A stretch of DNA of 64,000 bases, from assembly GCF_026210795.1 (NCBI RefSeq), contig NC_089445.1, forward strand, positions 3,410,001 to 3,474,000, in the 5' to 3' direction. The stretch comes from Rhizophagus irregularis. Lineage: Eukaryota > Glomeromycota > Glomeromycetes > Glomerales > Glomeraceae. Under the pieces are notes generated by a model that was not told the DNA's origin, ran no database searches, and was given only the letters and a program-made list of their open reading frames with translations. The position numbers and the translations under genes are program-made. Shown one piece after another: positions 1 to 64,000 of this stretch. Every line of letters starts with the position of its first letter. The first letter of the stretch is position 1.

Positions 1-2579
1 CGTTTATGTTACACGTGGTTATACAATCATTACACAATGCATACCTCAAATGAGAGTGATTTGATTGTTAAAAGCCTATATTTAGTCCTATTTAAAATTT
101 TCAATAGAACTCAATATTATTAATTTGCGCTATTGGTTTTTTTCCTGAATATAATTACAAATTATTTACTTCTGTGCTAATGTTTCGGCGAAACTGTTTT
201 GCGGTTGGTCCATTTTTGAGCTATTCTGACGAAACTAGAAATTTCACGTAGCTAAATTTGCTAAATTTAGAATTTTCTCATTTAACCATCTCGCAAGATG
301 TAGATTTGAGATATACAGATATACTCCTTGATTAGACAAACCTAAATATGTATTTTCCTCGATGGGCTGATGGACTAAAGCGTAACACAAAATTATGTAT
401 ACAGTATTTCTTGATACCGTGATGAAAATAGTTTATTATTTTTATCACATCATTATTACCTTAGAAAATTCTCGCACTTTTTTTTCCTTGTATACAGCTG
501 TTAAAATGTTTTATATCAGATAATAAAAATTTTGTAAAAAATATATAATTTAATACTGTATTTAATATTTAAAAATAGTGAAATAAAATTTTATTTTATT
601 GGCAACGTGCATTTCTTTATTGGTAAATATATACTTGTGAATCAAATTGCATAAAAAAAAATACATCATAATTTCAGTTTTCTGGGCACAGTTTTATATG
701 TTATTTCTTGTATCATCTCACTAGCAATGAAAAAGTTAGTTGTATTTCTGCGCCTTTTTTGTTTAGTATTTTATCTTATTAGTTACAATTCTCGTTGAAA
801 AATGGGATATCCAATGATAACAGAAGAACGACCAAATGATCTTAAGAAATGGTTTACGGGACACGTTAAACCATTTCTCGAAGAAAATATGAATGATTCA
901 GGATATGATGAATATGACACCAAAAAAAATCCAAGAACAAATTGTCAATGGTTACTTACACTTTCTTTACAGCCATATCTGATATAAAGTAAGAGTAACA
1001 TGGTCATGTGTTGGTATATTTTTTGGAACATTCTCGTTACCGACAGTAATTTTCATGATGCATTTGGTAACTCTTCGTGTTTGAGTAATCCAAACTACAT
1101 ACCTGAAGGGCATCCCATGTGTATGTTGATTTTGATGAAGTAACTCGAATTAATGAACGTGTAGAAAAAAAGGAAGGACGATAATTTGTTAATTTTACGA
1201 AATCAATACAAAAAAAAAATAAGGATAGCAGATATATAGGTTCCAAGGATTATATAGTTAGTTGTTACAACTACAACGCAGCTGTGATTACGAGTACGTG
1301 ATACATAAGATCATGTACTCATGTACTCACGTGTACTACTCTCTTCATTATTTCAAAAATAAAAAAATTTTACACATTACAATATAATGTATACGACGCG
1401 AAATTTATAAAAATAAACAACTGTTATATATAAAAGAAAAAATTGCAAATTTTCTTTTTATCGAAGAATTAAGTAATCAACAAAAATATAAAGAAAAAAA
1501 GAAAGAATAACAACGCGATTTATTGGATTATTCTTCTAGATTCATGTATACGCATTACAAAAAAAAAAAAGAATATGGATTGGAAAAAAGTAAAAGTGTG
1601 AATTAAATATACTTTTTTTTCTAGTTTTTAGTGGTTGGTAGAAGAAGAAATAAATTGCAGCTTGAGTGTGTAAAATAGTAAGGAAGCGATGTTGTATGAA
1701 TTATAATAAATGTTGTTTACTTAATAAACTAACAAAAACAAATTTTTTTTCTTAATAATTAACGCCACGACTTAGACTTTATTTAGATTTATAAACATTT
1801 GAATTTAGATTTATTCGCCCATAATCACGAAATTTATTAAGACAGGTTAATCTTTCATAAATCTTACAATAATTATACGTTTAATTTTTACAAAAAAATA
1901 AAAGTTATCTAAATTTAACAACTATATAAATTTTATACAATGACTTTTTACTGGGCGTCATTATGCGTGTAAACACTGTGTAAACTGAATTGCGGTCAGT
2001 TGATACATTCGTGTGACCTGGAAAAATAAAAATTTATCATTATAATCGCCATTGCAAAATGATTGTCATCATAGAAGTTCGTATATGCACAAACTGATTA
2101 ACATAAGTATATCATGCGAATTTTTTGTGATGATATGCAGGGATGAGTTTTATACTTGAAAAAAATAGTTACCATCATCTGAATGTTTTTATTGGGTCTC
2201 ATTTATTTAACATATTCATGATGCATGTAGTTACGCCAGCATTTATCATGAGAAAATTAAACATATCTTTTAAACATAATACAAATATAACCATAAGCGA
2301 AATATTAAAGTGAAATTTTCTTTGAAGGCCTAATTTGTATCGGCGTATCGTCCCTATGAAAAAAGAAAAATGCCCAAAACGGGCTCAACATATCAGACGT
2401 TTTTGGTATTTTATATGGCGTACTACTTTACTATATGCTCAAGAAGGGCAATAAAAAGGGGTCAATTTGATTTTTTTCGATTCGAGTTTTTAAGGTCTTA
2501 ACATACAACAAGTTAATTATTTTTTATTTTTTACTATCATATATTTACTTATTCATTAAACTTATCGTTAATGGATAAT
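1..2579. other. AT-rich stretch without a confident gene
   Basis: I see no gene here that I can support. A 61-codon plus-strand ORF at 802-987 begins with a good ATG and has a mixed, protein-like composition, but it has no recognisable domain and no clear continuation through splice sites. Around 1280-1335 there are short overlapping repeats of the type catgtactca. The remainder is low-complexity A/T runs. Confidence 0.5.
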
Positions 2580-2608
2580 TTGATGACCTGTGTAACCCAT
2601 TTTATTAT
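2580..2608 (+). promoter_or_regulatory. Bacterial sigma70-like promoter before the amine oxidase
   Basis: TTGATG at 2580-2585 is followed by a 17-nt spacer and TATTAT at 2603-2608, which fits the bacterial -35/-10 arrangement. It lies 33 nt before the start codon of the amine-oxidase gene. Such boxes arise by chance in AT-rich DNA. The call rests on the combination with the ribosome-binding sequence and the hairpin after the gene. Confidence 0.35.
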
Positions 2609-2630
2609 AAATATACCCTTAAAAGTCTGA

Positions 2631-2635
2631 AAGGA
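2631..2635 (+). promoter_or_regulatory. Shine-Dalgarno-like sequence
   Basis: AAGGA lies 6 nt before the ATG at 2642, which is ideal bacterial spacing. A fungal gene has no use for it. It supports the ATG at 2642 as the ancestral start and the idea that the unit came from a bacterium. Confidence 0.4.
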
Positions 2636-2641
2636 TTTTCA

Positions 2642-4299
2642 ATGTCATCTCACATGTTTTCCGATGTTCCTCCGGGAAAACCCAGCTTAAGAGCCGCGTA
2701 TGAGCAATGGCTTAAATTACAGAATCCGGTTGAGAGAACCGAACCGGGCAATCATCCCAAAATTCCACCCAAGGAACTTAATGTAGGCATTGTAGGTGGC
2801 GGAATGTCCGGCCTGTATGCCGCTTTAATTTTGCAGTCTCATGGAGCAAAGGTATCTATTTTTGAAAAAAACACGCGTCAGCGCTTAGGCGGGCGTGTAT
2901 ATACGCACCGTTTTACACAGGAGCCCAATCAGTATTTTGAAGCAGGCGCCATGCGTTTGCCGGAGACCTCTGAGCAACAACCGGTCTTTGATCTTATTGA
3001 CTATCTTAATGAAAAACTTCCGGGGGAATCCTGCATTAAAACCATTCCTTACGTGCTTTACGATGATAAGGGCAATCTGGTTTTGATAAACAATAAGTTT
3101 GGCCCGGATGGCAAAACAATGAGTGTTTCTTATGCAAATGCCAATCCGGATAAACTGGGCTTTTCTTCTAAGGCTATAGAATGCAACAAGACGGCAAATC
3201 AACTCATATACGAGAAGTTATATGGCCATATTTGGATGCGCTAAAAAAAGATTTTGCCAAGGGGTTTCAGGAAATTATCAAGTTTGACGATTTTTCTTTC
3301 CGTGCATACCTTGTGCAAGTTGCAGAATGGGACGAAGATAGAATCAATTATGTCGAAGTTATGACGTCTCAGACAAACCAATTCCAAAACAGTTTTACTG
3401 AACTGGTTATTGAGAATATGGATTTCTCGCAGGCAAGCTGGAAAACAATAGAAAATGGAATGGAGCGTTTACCGCATGGATGCGCCCAGTTAATTGGTTC
3501 TGAGAATATTTTTACGGGGGCTGAAGTTTATAAAATTGAAGATGTATCTGACGGCGTAAATATTTATCACTCGGAATCATCCGCACCGGTAAAATTCGAT
3601 AAAGTCCTTATGGCGTTGCCTCCCGCAGCATTACGGACCATTGAGACGCCAACATGGTCCCCCGATAAAATGCATGCGATACGCGCCCTTCATTTTGAAC
3701 CGCTATATAAAATTGGTTTAAGATTTAAAACGCGCTTCTGGGAAAAAGTGAGCCCACCGTCCAAAGGAGGCCAAAGCATAACCGATCTGCCGTCACGTTG
3801 GTTTGTATATCCATCCTATGGTATTGGTGATAACGGACCCGGCGTATTGTTATTGTATGCGTGGATGACAGATGCTATCGCTTTTTTACCTAAAAATGAA
3901 AAAGAGCGTATTTGCTTAGGTTTACGTGATTTGAAGAAAGTCTATGGTGATCAGGTCGACATAGACGATCAGTTTATTGAAGGATATTCAATTAACTGGA
4001 CAGATGAAGAATCAACAGGAGACGCTATGTTTTTTCCAGGCCAGTTTCGTAACTTGTTTAATATTGCAAGAGCTCCAGAAGGAAATGTCTATTTTGCCGG
4101 CGAGCATTTGAGCGTTCATCACACTTGGATTTTGGGAGCGTTGGATTCTGCGCTTTTAGCATGTCAGCAAATGTTAGGGGAACCGAACATCATGCCTTTA
4201 AGACCAACAACAAAACAAAATCCGCCGAAGCATGATTATGACTATAGTGATTGCATAAAAGCAAAACCTATGGCTGTTTACCGGGATCAAAGAACGTAA
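2642..4299 (+). pseudogene. FAD-dependent amine oxidase (L-amino-acid/monoamine oxidase family), frameshifted
   Basis: Two overlapping frames make one flavin amine oxidase of about 552 codons. Members oxidise amines or amino acids with FAD, releasing ammonia and hydrogen peroxide. The first frame (2642-3244) holds the dinucleotide-binding GGGMSG at residues 52-57, the ribose-binding Glu at 75 and GGR at 83-85. The second frame (to 4299) holds the C-terminal FAD motif FAGEHLSVHHTW. The frame moves by one base near 3205-3220, consistent with loss of a single nucleotide in a conserved region; no intron fits. The gene is intronless. Sample 60-nt lines have 40-48% G+C, against about 25% outside, and codons such as GGC, CCG and GCG are common. 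I see no signal peptide. The exact substrate cannot be told. A frameshift from sequencing error would make it an intact gene; bacterial contamination in the assembly is also possible. Confidence 0.82.
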
Positions 4300-5629: not shown

Positions 5630-5940
5630 AATTCGCAATAGTGATAATAATGTTAATAGTGCGGAGTAGTGAGAAGGAACCATCGTATTATGGTTTAGGG
5701 GGCCGGCGGAAAGCATGATATTATTTCATTTCGTGATTTATTCCTCCCTTTTACTCCAATATCTTTTATTAGTTTCATTTTTTACTTATCCGTCCGGCCC
5801 CTTTCTCATGTATTACTTTACAAAAATATATTAAAGATTTTACTTTGAATTTTTTTAAACGTGTTGTGTATTTTGAAAGTGACATTAATATTTATTAATA
5901 TTTATTAATTTATTCTTTTATTATTAGATTTTTACTTCAA

Positions 5941-6058
5941 ATCACTGGGGGTGATCATCACCGTTGGCCAGAATTATCAATTTTTACCAGCACTATATTT
6001 TTTTAATGCTGGTCGATCATCATAATTTCAGTCACCGGTGATCATCACCTCCGGTGAT
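5941..6058. mobile_element. 118-bp MITE-like element with 22-bp inverted ends
   Basis: The left end (ATCACTGGGGGTGATCATC...) matches the reverse complement of the right end over 22 bp with two mismatches. A nested ACCAGCA/TGCTGGT hairpin sits in the middle. Related fragments with gatgatcatcactggtgat appear at 35625-35655 and 35795-35825. No coding capacity is present. Confidence 0.55.
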
Positions 6059-6503
6059 AGTTGGAAAAATTCTTTTTATTAATTACATTTACTTTCACTG
6101 GTCGCATGCTATACTTTTTTGGTAACTTTTCGTATTACTCATTTTGACCCACTCGTGTAACAGGTAATATATTAGATGATGTGATCAAGTGATAAATATA
6201 AATATAAGCCACGTAAAACTAAGATACGATTCAACTTTTTCTCAACTCTCTCTAACTATATAAAATGTCTCAAAAAAGAACTGTAAAGCGTGAGACTAAA
6301 AAAACTAAGTAATGCAGTTCTAATTTTTTTTTTGAATACCATCTCTTCCCATATATTAACTAATCTTTGTTGTTAGGTTGATTGATACGTCTGAGAAAAT
6401 TTCGGCTAATGAATGTATAAAAAAAACTTTTATGTTTGTAATGCTGAAATAAATCTCGTCCCATTACCAGGTATAATATTATTTTCTGTCTTAATAAGTA
6501 AAG

Positions 6504-6761
6504 TTGAATATTTTTTTTGAACTCGGAATTCCAGGAAAGGAACTTTTAGAGCCAGTCCGTACTCTTAAAAGAAAATCAGTCTCTGACTGGACGGAGCAAG
6601 ATGTCATGCCACTAGCTGAATTACTAGCAGGAAGAATAGGAATTGACGGTATCGGAGAGAACTTTTCGGGCGCGAGTGCCTTTGGTAGTATCAGCGAAGA
6701 CTTGTCAAAATTTGTCTTCGAACATCCAAAATCAGATCAATTATTGATCCGGTCTACGTAA
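6504..6761 (+). CDS. Probable exon of an unrecognised protein
   Basis: About 75 codons of clearly protein-like sequence run from near 6534 to a stop at 6761 (central motif SVSDWTEQDVMPLAELLAGR). No ATG starts the frame; the open frame begins at a TTG, so an upstream exon is likely. A short ATG ORF at 6265 (MSQKRTVKRETKKTK) contains a possible donor gtaaag at 6283 (phase 0), and ag at 6538-6539 would be a phase-matching acceptor. That join is a guess. A donor-like GTAACT also sits at the 3' end, so the gene may continue or be truncated. I do not recognise the family. Confidence 0.4.
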   Translation: MNIFFELGIPGKELLEPVRTLKRKSVSDWTEQDVMPLAELLAGRIGIDGIGENFSGASAFGSISEDLSKFVFEHPKSDQLLIRST

Positions 6762-7702
6762 CTATCGACTTAACAACGTGTGCAAACAATGTGCCTCCAG
6801 CTTGCAAGGAACATATGTAGATCTTCGGGCTATTCTACAAAATTCAACTCTTCCAGCAACTTTGTTTTAATCATTTACGTAGTTGCTTTGCCCTGCTTAT
6901 TATAAATATGTTTTTCTATTATATTTAGCATAATGCAAACCATTATTTTTACCTTTCACTAATATAGAGTTATTTCTTCTATCTGCTTTAAAGTACTTTG
7001 TCTTATGAATTTGTATAACAAAAAAAAAATGTATTATTCAAAATAATTATAACATTTGAAAAAAAATAAAATGTGCTTTTATATATCAGATTAATAAGAG
7101 GATTGTTACTTTGTATGGGATGTTTTTATTTCCAAGTATACACAAGTTAAAAAAATAAAGACCGGTGTGAACTTTATTAATTTATATACGTGATAAATTT
7201 TAATGAAGAATGTTGACTCCGAAGGTTATTGATTGCTTAATTTCAATAATGTTAAGATTTACATCCTCAAGTAGAGTAGTCGAGTACAAAACAATCATAT
7301 ATTGTCATTACATAATACAGAAAAATCGAATGGAAGTTCTAACACATGAAAAAAAATCATGTTAATTTTGAGAGAACCACCCACTTAATTTCCCAGAAAC
7401 ATATTTACCTGGAGAACTTTTCTCCAACTAAACTTCTCTTCCTTCTCTATATTTCTTCGCGGTCTAAAAATAATAGTGTTATTTAGTAATTTTTCATAGA
7501 GACCGATCGCCTTAATAACCAAAGGGTAATACTTACATAAAATGCTTTTGTAAGACTCAATTTCTTAATTCGTTCATTTATTATTCTAGGAATATCATCC
7601 CAATAAAAGCGTTTCTTCTTATTTGGAGTAATATGGTATTCGAAGATTTCTTTGTTTTCGTTCGTTAATGAGAAGACGAGTCTGAGAATCTGCCCACTCG
7701 CC

Positions 7703-18145: not shown

Positions 18146-20585
18146 ATGCAATCAATAAAATGCGTTCTCGTTGGTGATGAAAATGCTGAAAAAGTAAGAC
18201 TAAGAGTCTCAAAGCCAATAAAGGACATTGTATTATTTACATTATTTACAAATAACCATTTAATATTTTTTTTTCAATTTCTGGTTATTTGTTATAGACG
18301 ACCCTTCTTATCTCTTATACGACCAATAAATTTCCAAGTGAATTCGTCCCTACTGTAAGTATTTCTCGGTAAAGGAAAAAATTTTTATAATCACTTGGTA
18401 ATTATGTGGCATTGTAGGTTTTTGACAATTATGCCGTTACAATAATGATTGGTGATGAGCCATATACACTAGGATTGTTTGATATGACTGGTACGTTGAT
18501 TGACTTTTATTAATATTAATTTATTTTTGATTATATTTATCTTATTTGTGTTTCTATTGATAAAAAAAAATGGATTAATAGGTCAAGAAGATTACGATCG
18601 TCTCCGACCACTTTCATATGCTCAAACGGACGTTTTCCTTGTTTGTTTTTCTGTAGTCTCACCAGCTTCTTTTGAAAACATTAAAGAGAAGTGGATTCCT
18701 GAAGTTCAACATCATTGCCCTGGAGTTCCACATTTGATTGTAGGCACACAAATAGATTTGCGTGATGACCCTGCTGTAGTTGAAAAATTATCGAGACAAA
18801 AGATGAAACCAGTATCAGTAGAGGAAGGGGAAAGATTGGCTAGAGAAATTGGAGCAGTGAAATATGTCGAGTGTTCAGCACTGACACAAAAGGGTTTAAA
18901 AAATGTTTTTGATGAAGCTATTGTTGCAGCCTTAGAACCACCCGTTGTGCGGCGAGTCAATCGTCCTTTTATTAGTAGGTTAAGGAGGTAAGAATCAAAC
19001 TATATAAAGATTTATCCAGTTTAAAATTTTACAACTAAATTACTATTCAAGATTTTATAAAGGATTAAGAAGAAAGGAAGAATCCATACCCCAGCTTCCC
19101 AGTGTATATCAACCAAAACCATCAGATGGACCTGTTGAACCTGTTGAATTTGTCAAACCTGTTAAACCTGTCAAACCCATTGAACCCGTTGAACCCGTTG
19201 AACCCATTGAGCCTGTTGAATCCATTGAACCCACTGAACCCATTGAATCTGTTGAACAAATTAAACCCGTTGAATTTGTTGAACCCATTGAACCCGTTGA
19301 ATCCATTGACGAGTTTGTTGATAAAAGAGATAAAAAATACTCCACTTGTAAGTCTTGTAAACGATTTAACACGGGAGAAAATTTATGCCATTCATGCGAT
19401 CCTCGAATAGCTAAAAAGTGGAAAAGTAAAAATAAAGAGATTGATGATTTTATCAAGGAATCACAACTTAAGGCCAAACATTACGATGATGTAATTGAAT
19501 GGATAAATTTTGACCAATTAAGGGGTATTGAAGAAATTGGAAAAGGAGGTTTTAGTACTGTATATTCGGCAAATTGGGTAAATCAGAAAAAGGTTGCACT
19601 TAAAAGATTCAAAACTCAAGATAACTCATTGGATTTCTTAAATGAGGTAATATTGAAATTTTAGTTATTTACATAACTTATCATAATGTACTGTACACCT
19701 AACGAGAATCTTATGATCTTTTAGATTAAAGCTCATGTACAATGTCAATTCCAAGCGAGCAGTATAAAAATACATGGGATAACCTTTAAACCATCTACGA
19801 AAGAGTATATGATGGTTTATCAATATGCGAATGAAGGGGATCTTCGACAATATTTATCAAAGAAATTTCCAACTCTTATTTGGGAACAAAAGTTGGACTT
19901 ACTTATTTCAATCGCATTAGATTTGCTAACCATTCATCATGAAGGGTACCTTCACAAAGATCTTCATAGTGGTAACATACTCTTGTTCAGCAATACGGAT
20001 CAACCAGGTATAAAATCCTGTATTTCTGATTTAGGATTATCCAGAAGGATGGATGATACAGATGTTAATGAATATGAAGGAGTGTATGGAGTCTTTCCTT
20101 ACGTGGCACCTGAAGTATTACTGCGTAAGCCGTACACCAAAGAATCAGATATTTATAGTTTGGGTGTAATCATGTCCGAGATGTCAATTGGTAAATTGCC
20201 ATTTGAAAATGTATCACATGATATATGCCTTCTGATAAACATTTGTAAAAATGGATTACGACCGGAATTTGCTCCTGGTACGCCCGATTGTTATATTCAA
20301 TTAGCGAAGCAATGTATGGATGCTGATCCAGAAAAACGACCAACCGCCTATAAAATTTGTGAGGAATGCTGCAATTGGCGTGACCTTCTTGGAGAATTAA
20401 ATGAAAAAGAACTCGATGAAAAAGAAGTTGATATTAGAAGTGCTTTTTTGGAAGCAGATAAAATCATTCCTACCTTATCAACAGTTTCACAAAGACATTC
20501 CAATGCAATATATGTAAGTCGATTTATCGACACACAAAAATTTTTAAACTCAGATACATCAATAAAACCAATACTATATTGGTAA
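18146..20585 (+). CDS. Cdc42-like degenerate GTPase fused to a zinc-ribbon TKL-type protein kinase
   Basis: Six exons (18146-18193, 18298-18354, 18418-18490, 18582-18987, 19070-19646, 19725-20585) join with GT-AG borders and matching phases into 674 codons including the stop. Residues 1-190 align with Cdc42 without a gap: Thr35, DxxG at 57-60, Gln61, TQID and ECSAL are present. However, the P-loop is GDENAEKT, so the invariant Gly15 and Gly12 are both Glu, and residue 59 is Thr, not Ala. There is no CAAX box. Residues 216-275 are 20 triplets of the Pro-Val/Ile-Glu type, then CKSC (288-291) and CHSC (301-304), then a kinase: GKGGF loop 352-356, Lys373, HKD 464-466, DLG 489-491, APE 515-517. 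The kinase keeps its catalytic Lys and both Asp residues, so it is probably active. GTP binding by the first domain is doubtful. An alternative acceptor at 19072 also keeps the frame and drops one residue. Confidence 0.88.
19131..19310 (+). repeat. 9-nt coding minisatellite (Pro-Val-Glu linker)
   Basis: Twenty in-frame nonanucleotides of the type CCC GTT GAA encode triplets that are mostly PVE and PIE, with variants PVK, SIE, SVE, FVE, FVK, PTE and QIK. The array joins the GTPase and kinase parts. Such arrays expand and contract easily, so linker length may vary between strains. Because the repeat is G-poor on this strand, the opposite strand is also open (Ser-Thr-Gly-Ser repeats); that frame is a shadow. 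Confidence 0.85.
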
Positions 20586-53207: not shown

Positions 53208-55478
53208 TTATTTTCTTTTTTGAAGTTTTTCTAACTTATTTTGTGCATTTTTGTTTCTTTGTTTAGCTGATTTTTCATACCAATAAATTGCTTTATTTAT
53301 ATCTTTTGTAACTCCTTTTCCATATTGATACATTAAAGCAATATTATATTGTGCCATTTCATCTCCTAAGTTTGCTGCAATTTGATATAATTTAAATGCT
53401 TTTTGTTTATCAATTTTATTTCCAATACCTTTATCATAACAATATCCTAATGAAGCTATTCCCTTTGAATATTTTCCTTCAGCTGATTGCTTATATAATT
53501 CAAAAGCTTTATTACAATCTTTTATAACACCAATTCCATTTTTATAACAATTACCAAGATTATGCATTGCTATTATATTCCCATTATTTGCAGCTTTTTC
53601 ATACCAATAAAATGCTTTTTTTAAATCTTTTCTAATTCCTATTCCTTTTTCAAAACTATAACCAATTTCTAATTGTCCTACTGCATCATTTTCATTAGCT
53701 ACTTTTTTATAATATTCAAAAGACAAATTTTCATTTTTCAAAGTTCCATATCCATAAAAATAACAATCACCAACGAAAAGTTGTGCTAATACATGATTTT
53801 TTTTTGATGCATTAATAAACAAATTAAATGCTTTCTTATTATTTTGATTTGTTACAAATCCATAATAGTTAAAATATCCAAGTAAATAAATAGAATTTGA
53901 ACTAATTTGATTATTCAATAACCAATTGTAAATTTCTTGTAAACTTGCATTATAATTATTAAAATGCTTTTCTAATTCTGAAATATTATAATTTCCCTTA
54001 TTTTTTAATTTATAAATATAATCGTTTATTTCTCCAACTATCATATTAAAATCTTTTTCGGTTGAAAGATTTTCTGAGATCTCAAAAGAATCAATTTTTT
54101 TTGTATCTATTTTCATTTTTTCAAAATTTTGCATAAGTTGAGATAATTCACCTCGTGGTTCTGAGTTATTAGCACTTAAAGAAATCGCTTCATTAAGTTC
54201 TTGTTTGTTTTTCACCTGATGATTTTCGATTATTACGTCTGTTTTGATAATTAGTGCATTTAGCCAAGTAACTACTTGATTTATGGTTGGGCGATTATCA
54301 GGTTCTCCATCCCAGCATTCTAAATAATAAATATAATCAATGATTTGATAAGAAATAATACTTAAGTAATTAAATTTGTCTTACCAGTATAAATTTTTGC
54401 ATAATTTTCAGGTGTTCCAGGAACAACAGTTTCTCTGAGACCTTGTAAAATTTCTAAAGCTAAACCAACATCATATTGTTCATCTTCAACATAAAAAGGA
54501 GGTTGTCCATTAGATATTTCCCATAATAATACGCCAATACTGTAAATATCACTTTTTTCATTTAATGAGTAAATTTGTGTTGCTTGGTCAGAACTACTTC
54601 TTCGTCTGTTGAAAATTTTTGGATCAACATAAGGAATCACTCCAAATAATTGGGATTGCAAATTTGATGACATCCCGATTCTTTTTGATAATCCAAAATC
54701 TGCCAATTTGATCGTTTTATGATGAACTAATATATTACCGGAATGCTATTAAAAAAAATGTATATATTAAACAAATGATGCAGATATGATATTATTCAAT
54801 TATTGAAAGAATAATGAATAAATTACCAAGTCACGATGGACAATTCCTTCATTATGTAAACATGATATAGCACAAGATAACTGGTATGCCATAATAGATT
54901 TGTCGTCCCAAGTAAGGTTAATAAAGTTTTCCTTCAGATAATTTCGCAGACTACCGCCATCGGCATATTCCATTACTAAAATATAATTATTATTACCATG
55001 ATATTCTAAAGAAAAAAAGAAACGGTCATTAAAATGCATTGTGAATAAATTCATAATATTATTAATATTAATTAAGGTATCATTATAATACCTGCTGATT
55101 CAAATTTTGTTATTCCATGGCAACGGATAATATTATCATGATAATCTACTTCACGCTGAATTTTTAACTAAATAATTTAAATTTTTAAATAAATACTATT
55201 TGATAATAATAAAGAAATAATATTATTTATTAAATTACCTCACAAACAATTTCTTTTAAGGTGACTTTGTTAAGATTAAAAAAAGATTTTAATGCAAAAC
55301 ATTTCAAATTTTTCCAATTTGCCCTGTAAACCTTTCCGAAACCTCCGCTACCAATTTCTTTAAAGTCACTAAATTCACTATATTCATAATATTTTATATG
55401 TTCTTTATTAATGGCTTCTTTAATCCATTCATCGGTATCATGCATTATGATATTATCAGACATATTGAATAATGACAA
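53208..55478 (-). CDS. TKL-type protein kinase with C-terminal Sel1 repeats
   Basis: Five exons (55239-55478, 55092-55167, 54827-55005, 54385-54745, 53208-54319) join with GT-AG borders and matching phases into 656 codons including the stop. The kinase domain has the loop GSGGFG at 43-48, Lys64, HRD at 162-164, DFG at 181-183 and VDPK in place of APE; all catalytic residues are present. Residues about 425-650 hold six Sel1-like repeats of about 36 residues (pattern A-x2-LGxCYxxGxG-x6-KAFxxYxxAA), a helical solenoid used for protein binding. A signalling kinase that recruits partners through the solenoid is the likely role. This architecture is expanded in Rhizophagus-like fungi. The ATG lies in cagacatattg context, with no upstream exon seen. 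Confidence 0.92.
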
Positions 55479-58676: not shown

Positions 58677-61600
58677 CTAATGTTTCTTCATATCTGATAT
58701 CCTTTGGTGAGACATTGGCGGCACTAGCGGTACTACCATGTTCACCTTTGTTGAACTTGATCGTGTTTGATTCTTTGATAAACGATCAAAAACATTATCT
58801 CTTGTCGATGTTTCTGATCTTGTGTGTGTATGATGTGACATTAATGCACGTTTTTCACATTCACTAGTAGTACTTATTACGCTTATTGTATCATCACTAT
58901 CGGGTGAACTATGTTCGTATGAACTTTGTCGCGTATGATATGCTGATGTTATATCTTTGGAACCTCGTCGTGCCATACTGCTTTGTGATCTTCGCTTATC
59001 AACAATTGCCAAAATGTCCGCTATCGCGTGAAACATTCCCACCTGATTCTAAGTAAAGACTTGTTAAACTACTTTGTCGACTATGTGCAAGAATTGTTGA
59101 CCCAACGTGAAGCGAACTTGAAAATTGAACACTAGGTTTTCTTCGTTCTAAATGTTGATCACTGGATCTGGAACGTTCTAAAGGTTGACTGCAGGACCTT
59201 GTGCGTTTAAAAAATTGACTATTGAGAGAACTTGTGCGTTCTAAATGTAAATTTCCAAGCTCTATTGAAGGAGAAATATTCTCATCATTTGGTGTTGATG
59301 GACCATTCTTTAATCTTCGACCATTTAAACTCCTCTTTACATCATTGTAACCAATGCTTCCACTGCTATAATCACTATTACCAGAATCTTTTCTCTTTGA
59401 ATTTGTTGGAACGTCCGGCGTTGATGATTGAATTTCATTAGTTCGTTCAGATACCTTTTCGCGTAATTGAAGATTTAACAAGTATAAATTGCGTCTTGAT
59501 GATAATCCCATTTGACAAGGAGTTCCAAGAGTTCCTGCAGATACTGCAGCCTCGAAGGAAATGGCATTGGAAGTACTATTTTCAATATCGTCCATCTGTA
59601 ATTCTCTCTTTTCTGGAGTTGATGGACTTAATGATCTTCCATCAAGACGTAAAGCTTCTTCGAGAAATCTGCTTTTCTTCTCGTATTTACTTGTCAATAA
59701 TGATTTTCTTAAATCCATAATTGTCCTTTCTCGTTGTTCTAGAATCATTTGAAGAGACCGATATCCAGTCCGAAGTTTAATAATATCCTTAAAGAAGGAT
59801 TCCAATATTGTATAAGATTCGAATTGATCCAAATTTTGTAGAACTCGAAAAACATAGTCATATAAGGCTTCATGTGATGCAACCTCTGGTAAGATGAAGG
59901 GAAGTTTCTTTTCAGCTTTATCAGTCTTAATATAATTCTCTTCTTGGTCCGCAGCAATACTTGATTGTAAAGAATGAATCTCAGCATTAATGCAAGCAAT
60001 TTCCGAGGTAATTATCTCAATCTTATCATCTAATGCTTGAGCATATCCTCTTAATTCATTTCCAATTTCACAAGTACTATTTATTCTTTCTTGTTCTTCA
60101 AGTAATTCATTCTTCTCCTCTTGTAAATTGTTTCTTCTAACGATCCATTCATCCATCACTGCTAGTGTTTGACGACCACTAATATATTTACAGATTGCTT
60201 CATAAAGAAGTTTTTTCTTATCATAACCACTGGCAAATACTTCATCATAGATAGGACTTAAATCATCAGAGGATCGTCTTGGTTCCTTTCCGTCTTCACA
60301 ATTATTAGGTGCTGAATGATCACGGAAAGCCTTGGCTATTAACTTAGGAGTAGTGGTCCGTTTCAGTAATGCCATAACCGATTTAAGTTTTTCATTTGTT
60401 TGTAAAACTTTCTTCCGTCTCTTTTCAAGCATGATTTTTTGCATTTCACTAGTTCTTTCAAGACGGTTCATTCGTTCTTGAGCAGCTTTTTTTTTACGAC
60501 GAAGATTTTGAATTTCACGTTGATTACGTTCAGTCATTTCACGAACATCATTCATGCGCTTTATCATTCGCGATTTTTCACTTTTTAGTTGTTCAATTTG
60601 AGCACGCATATTCTTGAGCATTGTTTCATTTTGATTCTTTGATGTAGCATTTTGGGTAGCTTCTTGAATTAAACGGTTCATCTTGTGTTCGTAACGGGCT
60701 TTAAGTTCGACCGCAAGGATCGAATTCTTATCACGAGTACTAGCATTTTGAGCGCGTTTAACAGCAGCGTCCCTTTCTTGTTGTAAGGCTTCTTGCATAT
60801 CATCCAACCGTTGTTCATATTGATTTCTCATATTAGTATATTGTTTTACAGCAAATTCTAATTGTGAAATGAGATGTTCTTTAACAATAATATCAGCATG
60901 AATTTGACGTAGCTCGTGGGCAAGCGCAAGAGCATTTCGGGATGAGCAACTAGTGCAATATTGAGAAGAATCAGATTTAGTTGAATAAGGAGAAATTGGC
61001 TCATCGTCAGAATTAGATTCTTCAACAGCTGGAATTTCACTGGGAGATACACTACTTAATCTTTTTTCCCATTCGGGTACTTCAATGGTTTGATTTTCAC
61101 CGAAATATTCACTGCTTGATCTTCTTTTTTCCTTTGAATAATTGGGTATAATTTGATCAATATAACTTTCACTATTAGTTGATGAAGGTTGTTGAATTAC
61201 AAGTGGGTCATCATATAAAGGATCTCCATTATTTATTATCATGTAACTTTGTCTGAGTTGTTCATTGGCCTTTTCGAACTTTTCTCTGGTATTACTGCGT
61301 CTTTTTAATTTTTGAGTTATTTTGAATGATTCACCTTCGCTAACAATATGTTCATCAAGTTGACAAGATGAAGAAGGATCAACAAGTGAGATTTTATTAG
61401 AAGTCTCATCAGAAACTGGAAAGTGGTCATTGGCTCTTGTCTTACTTTTCTTTGAAGAACGTTTCTTCTTCTTTTTACCTTTCTTCTCTCCACTCTCTTT
61501 ATTACTATTTCTATCATTATTTTGATGATAAATATCCTCATCAGATGAAAAGATATGAGGATCAGGGAACTTGATATGATCTTTCTCAGCCAAGGAAGCT

Positions 61601-64000
61601 TTATATGGATGTTGAGCAGCTTGAGCAGTTAAAAGTTCGGCAATTTGATCTTTAGGATTTTTAATTTCTGTTTCATATCCTTGAATGATATGATGAGTTT
61701 TTATCCTATGTTCACGATCATTATCTGAAAGGCCCTCATCATTAAAACTAATTTCCATTAAGAAAGTATTCTTTTCTGCATTTACAGTTTTTTTAAGTTC
61801 TTGTTCGACATTTTGAAGTTTCATTTTTGTCATTCCTAATTCTTCTTTAAGACTCTTAATTTCTTCTTCATATTTACGACTTGTTTCTTCATTACAACCA
61901 CCAGCTCGTAAATTTTGAATTTCCACCTTTAATCTACTTATTTGACCACAAAGTTGATTTATCTCAACAGAGTTACCATTATAACTTTCATTAACACTAA
62001 CTTTATTCTTAATATTTCGAGCACGATTAGCGTATTTTAGTGTATTTAAGGTTTCCATAAAATTAGAATCAGCTGGTGAAACGCAAGCTAACATGAGAGT
62101 TTGACTATTACCACCAAGTGAATCTTGCAATAAACGTGTTAATTTTGAATCTCTGTAAGGGATATGTGTAACATTTCTTGATTCATCACCAAGCGCGCTA
62201 ATTACATTACCAAGAGCCAGTAAACTCCCATTAATTGCAATTCCTTCTTTTTCTCTATCACCTATGGAGTTAGTTCTCTTTAACTATTAAATTTTTTTGT
62301 AAAAAAAGATAAAACCACATAAATAATTCCGACTATATAAAGAATACAATAAAATATTAATAATTACCCTTTCTGAACCAGCTAAATCTACAAAATGAAA
62401 TTTTGAAGTTACTTTTGATGTCAATGATTTTTGTGCTGGTGGATCATCATTTTCTTTATTTTCTTCTAAATTTTCTATTCCTGTTTGTTTAAGTATTACG
62501 GAAAATATAGCGTGTGATCTTGAAGATACTATATTCATATCTGTTGAAGCGACAGTTCGACACAATGAACCCTTTTGTAATTGTCTAATAACAAAATGAA
62601 ATTGCGTGTTAAAAAAATATCATACGTATATCTTAACGTCATATAAAAAAAAAGAGCATACCCTAAAAGTTCATCTGGGCCTGAAACTTGAACTTCTCTT
62701 ACACCAGCCCAATGTATTTGACCGTTAGTATCTTCTCTTATCATTAAATCACTCCTTCCTTTTTTATTATTTTCTCTACTTTGTGGGTTTAATAAGTCTA
62801 TAAGAACTTCATTATATAATTCTAAGAATGATACATAAACTTCAAATTGATAAGAAGGATTTTTTTCTTTTCGTTCGTGAAGGTCAGCAAATAATTTTCT
62901 TATGGCACGTTGAATTATTCCTAAAAAAAATGACGTCGCGTCATAATCTAAGTTTGATGATCATTTTAAATGAATAATAGAACAATGGAATGAATGCATC
63001 ATATTTTACCCTGATGTTCGGGTAGAATATTTGAACCGTCTAAAGCTGTACCCATACTATATGTTTTACCACTGCCAGTTTGACTAAAAAAAAAATAAGG
63101 GTTGAAAATTTTTTAATAACAATTAATTTTTATAAATAATAAAATATACAAAATATTTACTTACCCATAAGCTAACATTGTGACATTATAACTAAAAATA
63201 TATATATATTAAAATAAATAATATAATATAATAAACAATAATAAATTATATATATATATATATTTGTTATTTATATTTGATTCTTCTGAATGACGTGATA
63301 TTTTTTATCCTGTACTCACCCTTTCACCAATTTTTCTACTAGCGGACTTGCGCATTCTTGAAATACTTCTTCTTGTTCAGTATCCGATGGGAATACATGA
63401 TCGAATGTAAAGGATTTATCGTTTCCAATGAGTATTTGTGGTGCGTCAGATATTGTTGTTAAACTTTTATTACAATTTTGTTGTGTTTCTTTTTTATTAA
63501 GTGGTCTCACTCTTAAAGCAACTCTATTTATTATAAGGAGAGGACAGAAAGGAAGATGAGTGAAAGGAGGAAAAAGATAAAGGTGGAAGAAAATAAATAA
63601 GAAAAAGACTTATTAAGATTAAAGAGTGCTAGGTATGTGGCACAAAATTATCTGTGACGTATTGCCGATCATTTTAGTACCCTAGCCATGGCGAAAAAAA
63701 AGTGACTGACACGTGACTTTTGGCCCGCATTACGGCGTTATGCACTAACACGTGAAAATAACCGGTGAAGAATAAGGGGTGACGAATAAGTTTTTACCTA
63801 CTCAAAAAAAACAAGTCCCTCAGATAAATATAAAAAGTGGAAACGCGGTGGGGCGTGACGGTTGTGATGAATAAAATGCAGTCACGTGTCAGTCACTTTT
63901 TTTTCGCCATGGCTAGGGTTGTAGATCATTTCATTGATCAATGAACAATATAATTGGCGTAAACTACACATGATTTTTTGATTTATACTTACCGCACGGA
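58677..64000 (-). CDS. Kinesin-4-like motor protein (N-terminal exon beyond the window)
   Basis: Exons are 63993-64000 (partial), 63320-63523, 63165-63191, 63010-63083, 62662-62920, 62368-62584 and 62283 downward; all phases match. The motor shows VALRVRPL, the P-loop GQTGSGKT, switch I SSRSHAIF and switch II DLAGSER, followed by [19 protein letters not shown], which suits the kinesin-4 (KIF4/KIF21) group. A neck and long coiled coils (61.9-60.4 kb and 60.2-59.7 kb) and a Ser/Arg-rich tail follow. In-frame reading stops at 58999 after 1357 residues within the window. A second frame (59042-58677) continues with the same tail style, so one indel may hide about 105 more residues. The motor should walk along microtubules and organise spindle or transport microtubules. 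All ATPase motifs are intact. Confidence 0.93.
63680..63918. mobile_element. 239-bp MITE with perfect 38-bp inverted ends, inside a kinesin intron
   Basis: 63680-63717 and 63881-63918 are exact reverse complements over 38 bp, starting CCCTAGCCATGGCG and including an 8-A run and CACGTG. The element lies wholly in the first visible kinesin intron (63524-63992). The interior is more GC-rich than its surroundings and has no ORF. Gatcattt occurs close to both sides but not directly at the ends, so the target duplication is unclear. Confidence 0.8.

Follow-up and report, generated by a model that had tools for sequence, protein, structure and literature searches.

Rho GTPases usually reach kinases in trans, whereas one locus of Rhizophagus irregularis appears to hold a Cdc42-like GTPase and a kinase in a single reading frame. 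Are the two halves really made as one protein, and if so, what would a GTPase domain do when it is joined to a kinase? The gene lies on contig C17 of an assembly of 146.7 Mb in 32 contigs, within a stretch of 64,000 nucleotides (3410001-3474000) that was analysed as a whole and is called the window here; positions below are those of the window unless a contig is named, and the gene is read on its forward strand.

Six exons of 48, 57, 73, 406, 577 and 861 nt, proposed in an earlier note on this DNA as a model of 674 codons including the stop (673 aa), were reproduced exactly, with GT-AG borders and phases 0, 0, 1, 2 and 0. Exon 1 (18146..18193) encodes the P-loop with G12E, A13N, V14A and G15E, exon 2 (18298..18354) keeps T35 of switch I, and exon 3 (18418..18490) reads VFDNYAV...LFDMT, that is, the effector loop and the start of G3 with T58M and A59T. 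Exon 4 (18582..18987) supplies the remainder of the Cdc42-like domain and the first half of a basic tail, without a CAAX. The same note had placed a phase-2 intron at the junction and a fusion across it; both are borne out, but its acceptor at 19069 is not, and CAAG/A at 19051 is favoured because three database proteins (P0004, P0005 and P0006) have a common junction peptide and because a Cdc42 paralogue on contig C29 has a phase-2 intron followed by FYK. Exon 5 thus very probably starts at 19052 rather than 19070, which gives a junction intron of 64 nt (18988..19051, phase 2, GTAAGA...TTCAAG) and a protein of 679 aa. The start at 19070 was set aside on the agreement of these four sequences with 19052, and the acceptor at 19069 is kept as a less supported in-frame alternative; since the two starts differ by 18 nt and both are in frame, the fusion itself is unaffected by the choice. 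Exon 5 (19052..19646, 595 nt) begins with FYKGLRRK and runs through a linker, a CxxC ribbon and the kinase N-lobe as far as glutamate 393, and exon 6 (19725..20585) carries the kinase remainder, in which D472, N477 and D495 are present, and a C-terminal tail. The linker is a P-[VI]-E repeat encoded by 20 copies of a 9-bp unit (19130..19309; residues 222-283 of the 679-aa protein). A Pfam scan of the 673-aa protein matched Ras at 5-174 (E 9.4e-43) and PK_Tyr_Ser-Thr at 348-600 (E 2.2e-38), and the full set of domains matched in the fused protein was Ras, PK_Tyr_Ser-Thr, Pkinase, Roc and Arf.

The coding parts of the GTPase and the kinase are only 64 nt apart, and the unspliced frame stops at the junction donor (AGG TAA). 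The locus could on this account yield two products, namely a GTPase alone that ends in ISRLRR through retention of the junction intron, and kinase exons that are dead or reached by rare read-through; one database protein, P0240 (195 aa, 8 members), is annotated in exactly this way and ends ISRLRR at the unspliced donor. However, three other database proteins splice past that donor, the C29 paralogue keeps the same intron, and the GTPase-alone product would have neither a CAAX nor the full basic tail. Furthermore, exon 5 has no methionine codon among the 198 codons of the kinase frame, and the first ATG in that frame is residue 29 of exon 6, within the kinase domain, which leaves these exons without a separate start codon for the kinase. 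Two separate products are therefore an unlikely reading of the locus.

The best-matching named proteins in the database are from R. irregularis itself (P0004, P0005 and P0240). P0004, P0005 and P0006 each read across the GTPase-kinase junction with the peptide that the 19052 acceptor gives, and in P0006 a single ORF of 440 aa spans the GTPase, the linker, the ribbon and the kinase N-lobe; its 2116-nt contig has the source tag lgn, which we take to denote the Logan assemblies, and may be a spliced transcript. P0006 is identical to the window protein at 413 of 440 aligned residues, gaps left out, has a linker shorter by 15 residues, and departs from the kinase reading frame at about 19870, so that it would represent either a version without a working kinase or an assembly error. 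Among the matches listed (120 of 493, 120 of 1681 and 120 of 1456), P0006 alone carries both Ras and kinase Pfam tags, and the complete 679-residue protein was not found among these best 120 of 493, 1681 and 1456 matches in the protein database. As a separate observation, the 9-bp repeat of the linker (19130-19309) varies in length between versions and is a possible strain marker.

Most of the kinase is missing from P0004 (386 aa) and P0005, whose models remove it by splicing, and the question is whether their form is the main product. Removing a 957-nt intron (19348..20304) from the window gives a kinase-less protein that matches P0004 at 385 of 386 residues, with a difference at residue 59, and the acceptor of P0005, read by eye, is the same as that of P0004; this intron is either a real isoform or an annotation artefact. 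If it were real and dominant, the gene would chiefly make a pseudo-GTPase, a linker and a kinase tail. Yet introns in the full model, five in all, measure 63-104 nt, so that this one exceeds them 9- to 15-fold; P0006 keeps the N-lobe, and the catalytic residues of the window kinase are intact. Moreover, the kinase genes of R. irregularis are described as inherently repetitive in the available part of one source (PMC8647823), and repeat masking of such genes may explain why predictors skip the kinase. We regard the kinase-less form as an improbable main product. The earlier view of the locus as a single fused coding unit, and not two genes read together, is supported by the phase-matched exons, P0004, P0005 and P0006, the C29 paralogue and the ATG-less exon 5, against the disagreement of the database models P0240, P0004 and P0005, and it is highly likely from the sequence that a single fused protein is made.

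The GTPase half descends from Cdc42, a switch of cell polarity. It is identical to the canonical Cdc42 of the same genome (C9:1839092) at 157 of 181 residues, and the two genes have in common the exon lengths 48, 57 and 73 and three intron positions with their phases; G12E, G15E, T58M and A59T are among the 24 differences, and the fusion is further set apart from this copy by its lost CAAX and its joined kinase. Over residues 1-187, the solved structures that rank highest by sequence (best 60 of 3219 matches) are chains of Cdc42. Over 181 codons Ka/Ks between the two is 0.103 (Ka 0.087, Ks 0.845), with 0.34 in codons 1-20 and 0.078 in codons 21-181. The three shared introns, together with these Ks and Ka/Ks values, point to an old DNA-level duplicate of Cdc42 under long purifying selection, not to a retrocopy or fresh debris. 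A decaying fusion without function would be in keeping with the departure of P0006 from the kinase frame and with the variable linker (15 residues fewer in P0006), but it sits poorly with a Ka/Ks of 0.10 at a Ks of 0.84, a value for the GTPase half only, with a window copy that is open for 679 codons, and with P0004, which agrees with the kinase-less reading at 385 of 386 residues; decay thus seems a poor bet.

What distinguishes this domain from Cdc42 is clustered in the P-loop (G12E, A13N, V14A, G15E and C18T), with T58M and A59T in G3. The G1 motif GxxxxGK[ST] is replaced by GDENAEKT, in which glycine 15 is gone, and an acidic residue, E or D, stands at position 15 in each of the five GTPase versions (window, P0004, P0005, P0006 and P0240); G12E occurs in the window and P0004 only, and A59T in the window only. 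Switch I T35, Q61, the G4 motif TQxD and the G5 motif SAL are kept. At the C terminus, where the canonical copy ends KCLVL, the CAAX is absent and the fusion reads on. The departures were set against conservation in 141 Cdc42-like proteins, kept out of 224 matched proteins for full length and at least 70% identity and chosen without a P-loop criterion, eight fusion-related proteins having been left out beforehand. Conservation reaches 95% or more in 96 columns; the fusion departs at 10 of these, seven of them in what we took as nucleotide-pocket positions (Fisher p 0.001). Position 15 is glycine in 137 of the 141; at 12, 15 or 61, nine of the 141 lack a residue or have an unusual one, and several of these proteins look mis-modelled. 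One member of the comparison set, P0287, has D at position 15 in a stretch that looks mis-modelled, and one other, the fish Rho-like protein P0249 of Siganus canaliculatus, also has E at this position (VGDAEVEKT), apparently an independent case.

Engineered Rac1 G15A is described, in the available part of a Rac1 source (PMC3253119), as incapable of binding either GDP or GTP and hence of high affinity for GEFs. In a partly available treatment of pseudoGTPases, these are GTPase folds without one or more G motifs, and class (i) comprises those without nucleotide binding (PMC5593906); a degraded G motif of this kind, the altered G1, is what the fusion has. Nucleotide binding by the GTPase half is probably weak or absent; some residual binding is possible since T35, Q61, TQxD and SAL are intact, and we are fairly confident that the domain does not cycle. 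Class (i) members such as pG1 and pG2 of p190RhoGAP and CENP-M, so far as that source covers them (PMC5593906), resemble the fusion in having a degraded G1 within a larger signalling protein; the fusion, placed beside them by sequence alone, differs in being changed only in G1 and part of G3, in remaining identical to Cdc42 at 157 of 181 residues and in its attached kinase. The atypical Rho proteins RhoBTB, as described in the available portion of another source (PMC7600811), likewise have a Rho domain, a long C-terminal extension and no CAAX, but the extension of the fusion is a kinase, and the Pfam scan found no BTB domain in it.

The earlier note had offered an intramolecular regulator as one role for the GTPase, and Roco proteins give that idea a precedent. 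In Roco and LRRK proteins a Ras-like domain precedes a kinase in one chain, as it does here, and the GTP state of the Cdc42 domain could by analogy regulate the attached kinase. T35, Q61, G4 and G5 are kept, and Pfam gives a Roc match at 5-118 (50.8 bits). This match is weaker than that to Ras (146 bits), however, and other Cdc42-like proteins match Roc too. Compared with LRRK2 and the Dictyostelium Roco kinases (PMC1420674, in its available part), the fusion has a Cdc42-type domain with an altered nucleotide site, and neither a COR domain nor leucine-rich repeats were found by the Pfam scan. With an acidic residue at position 15 in five of five versions and no COR by Pfam, the GTP-switch proposal is weakened, and we give it little credence.

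The kinase half, by comparison, looks complete. K379, E393, D472, N477 and D495 are all present, which we take to be the catalytic lysine, the alpha-C glutamate, the HxD aspartate, the catalytic asparagine and the DxG aspartate, so that on sequence the window kinase has the full set of active-kinase residues. The CxxC...CxxC ribbon in front of it is real (C294-C297 and C307-C310), but the idea that it is part of what is new in the protein is not supported: a ribbon followed by the kinase glycine loop is found in 36 of 351 proteins compared, including P0006 and P0238, with a median ribbon start of 76.5, and it belongs to the kinase family as such. All three segments, the ribbon, the kinase and the C-terminal tail, align with an expanded glomeromycotan kinase family, presumably TKL-type; the kinase has at least 139 matches in its own genome (88 scored of 7381 candidates) and matched 1681 database proteins, of which the best 120 were examined. 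Family members in this comparison have short N-termini or long ones, some with tags that we presume to denote Sel1 or TPR, whereas the window member has a GTPase there. A ribbon near the N terminus and the Sel1 or TPR tags on some members suggest that the N terminus is where the family seems to swap partners. Relative to the ribbon-bearing kinases of Glomeromycotina, therefore, the fusion has in common the ribbon before the kinase and the C-terminal tail and differs in its GTPase N-terminus.

Between the two domains, in place of the CAAX, stands the basic tail (about 183-204), which is cationic and possibly amphipathic. Its hydrophobic moment is 0.60, a mildly unusual value that 173 of 10,000 shuffles equal or exceed, and two windows in the ribbon region exceed every window of the tail. 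A helix is predicted at 188-204 with low confidence; the two structure models are of low quality (mean pLDDT 62 and 56, with residues 1-76 and 10-76, respectively, without confident placement, and no ordinary Cdc42 as a control) and were used solely as a weak hint of this helix. From such features one may weakly infer that the tail contacts the membrane.

Is the join confined to this gene? P0238 (247 aa, on a 1403-nt contig; sources ncbi, jgi and ena) has the C-terminal portion of a Ras-type GTPase, which continues by way of a short VEPVES linker into a ribbon and an N-lobe; 50 of 67 residues in its ribbon region are identical to the window, its best place in the R. irregularis genome is the window gene (71%), and Pfam confirms its Ras part and gives no kinase match. 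Two gene models of Gigaspora margarita, P0239 and P0241, pass from Cdc42 to a kinase N-lobe without a ribbon; Pfam matches their Ras part only, and the kinase part rests on alignment. The model of P0243 from Dentiscutata erythropus (Gigasporaceae) has a pair of Cdc42 domains and a comparable tail motif and lacks a kinase. Among these relatives, G12S occurs in a kinase-joined protein of Gigaspora, and G12Y with Q61L in the tandem protein of Dentiscutata. The joins in the Gigaspora models and in P0238 suggest a lineage habit, not one accident. In the tree, the Rhizophagus fusion group adjoins its own canonical Cdc42 with weak support (81/80), and holding the Rhizophagus and Gigaspora fusions together gave a p-AU of 0.222, or 0.368 with Dentiscutata and the C29 paralogue added; a single origin is neither established nor rejected by these tests. 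When the kinase N-lobe of Gigaspora was searched against the R. irregularis genome, the window kinase came seventh among the 150 matches listed (150 of 3007 candidates were scored), a rank that does not support orthology between the two kinase halves. The C29 paralogue (locus L030, about 5730-6900, minus strand; near C29 2744600) is itself naturally altered, with G12N, A13N and Q61L and without a CAAX, and its basic tail is reached through the same phase-2 intron as in the fusion, then FYK; no kinase match was found in about 6 kb downstream of it.

We come then to what the fused protein would do. On balance we favour a single gene product of 679 residues, whose former Cdc42 (residues 1-180) is followed by a cationic tail, the PVE linker and a ribbon-bearing kinase, and whose Cdc42 domain would be a pseudo-GTPase that holds a Cdc42 partner and does not cycle. 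That the domain is a docking or bait module rather than an enzyme is the probable part of this proposal. Through the bound partner the kinase would be brought to sites of polarity or to the partner itself, and the basic tail may stand in for the lipid anchor as the membrane contact. Nucleotide-free Rho proteins hold GEFs, and for this reason the simplest partner would be a DH-type GEF such as Cdc24, an identification that we offer tentatively. The suggestion in the earlier note that the domain is a decoy for GTPase-targeting factors fits better than the switch, and it becomes specific through Rac1 G15A, which the available part of its source presents as unable to hold nucleotide and of high affinity for GEFs (PMC3253119); here such binding is predicted only. 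What makes the locus unusual is that a Rho GTPase is covalent to a kinase and bears a natural change at G15, a position that, according to the same portion of that source, laboratories mutate to trap Rho GEFs (PMC3253119). If the proposal is right, the locus would encode a naturally occurring GEF trap, or bait, coupled to a kinase, and it would give a member of the expanded kinase family of arbuscular mycorrhizal (AM) fungi a testable function.

A bait could also face outward. In an integrated decoy, the Cdc42 domain would attract host, bacterial or endosymbiont attackers of fungal Rho GTPases and the kinase would report the attack. Most of the domain is kept while its nucleotide site is altered, and related kinases carry differing GTPases (Ras in P0238, Cdc42 in P0239), as such a design would have it; we know of no attacker, however, and ordinary GEF docking accounts for the same facts, which leaves the outward-facing decoy with a small chance. 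Returning to docking, a generalisation that we regard as speculative is that AM fungi repeatedly fuse non-cycling Ras or Rho domains to kinases of their expanded family as fixed baits, nucleotide-free-like in Rhizophagus (G15E/D) and possibly GTP-locked in the Gigasporaceae relatives. If true, this would be a class of bait-kinase sensors comparable to the integrated decoys of plants. A Cdc42 with a natural acidic residue 15, no CAAX and a ribbon kinase fits, as a whole, no known family with which its sequence was compared, and no Rho-kinase fusion in fungi is announced in the titles or abstract openings of the literature searched, in which broad topics were sampled in small part and subscription papers were mostly outside the scope.

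Other GTPase-kinase fusions were sought in the genome by grouping 55 Ras matches into 30 gene places, including that of the window, and checking 2-6 kb downstream of the 29 others by tblastn with the window kinase, a query that a distant kinase could escape. Within 5 kb downstream of the 29, this query matched no kinase on the same strand. One place, L037, has weak kinase matches (E about 1e-5), one of them on the same strand about 5.2 kb downstream, which was taken as a separate gene. At L022 (5941-7816, minus strand; C9 about 4899708-4901583), an ORF for a kinase can be joined in phase, through an open exon of 78 nt, to one for a Rho-like GTPase with a GNGAVGKT P-loop and a KCIIL CAAX; every border is GT-AG in phase 1, and the only stop is the terminal one. 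By its sequence this is a possible kinase-then-Rho fusion in the opposite order; across the loci examined, about 17% of 78-nt stretches are free of stops in a given frame. L023 (C19:1131000-1140189) holds two adjacent Ras-type genes with basic tails and without a CAAX at their apparent stops. As for the neighbours of the fusion gene, ORF reading of the window indicates what are presumably a FAD amine-oxidase-like gene (2579-4299, forward strand), a Sel1-repeat protein with a kinase end (53208-54380, reverse strand) and a kinesin (58999-62960, reverse strand).
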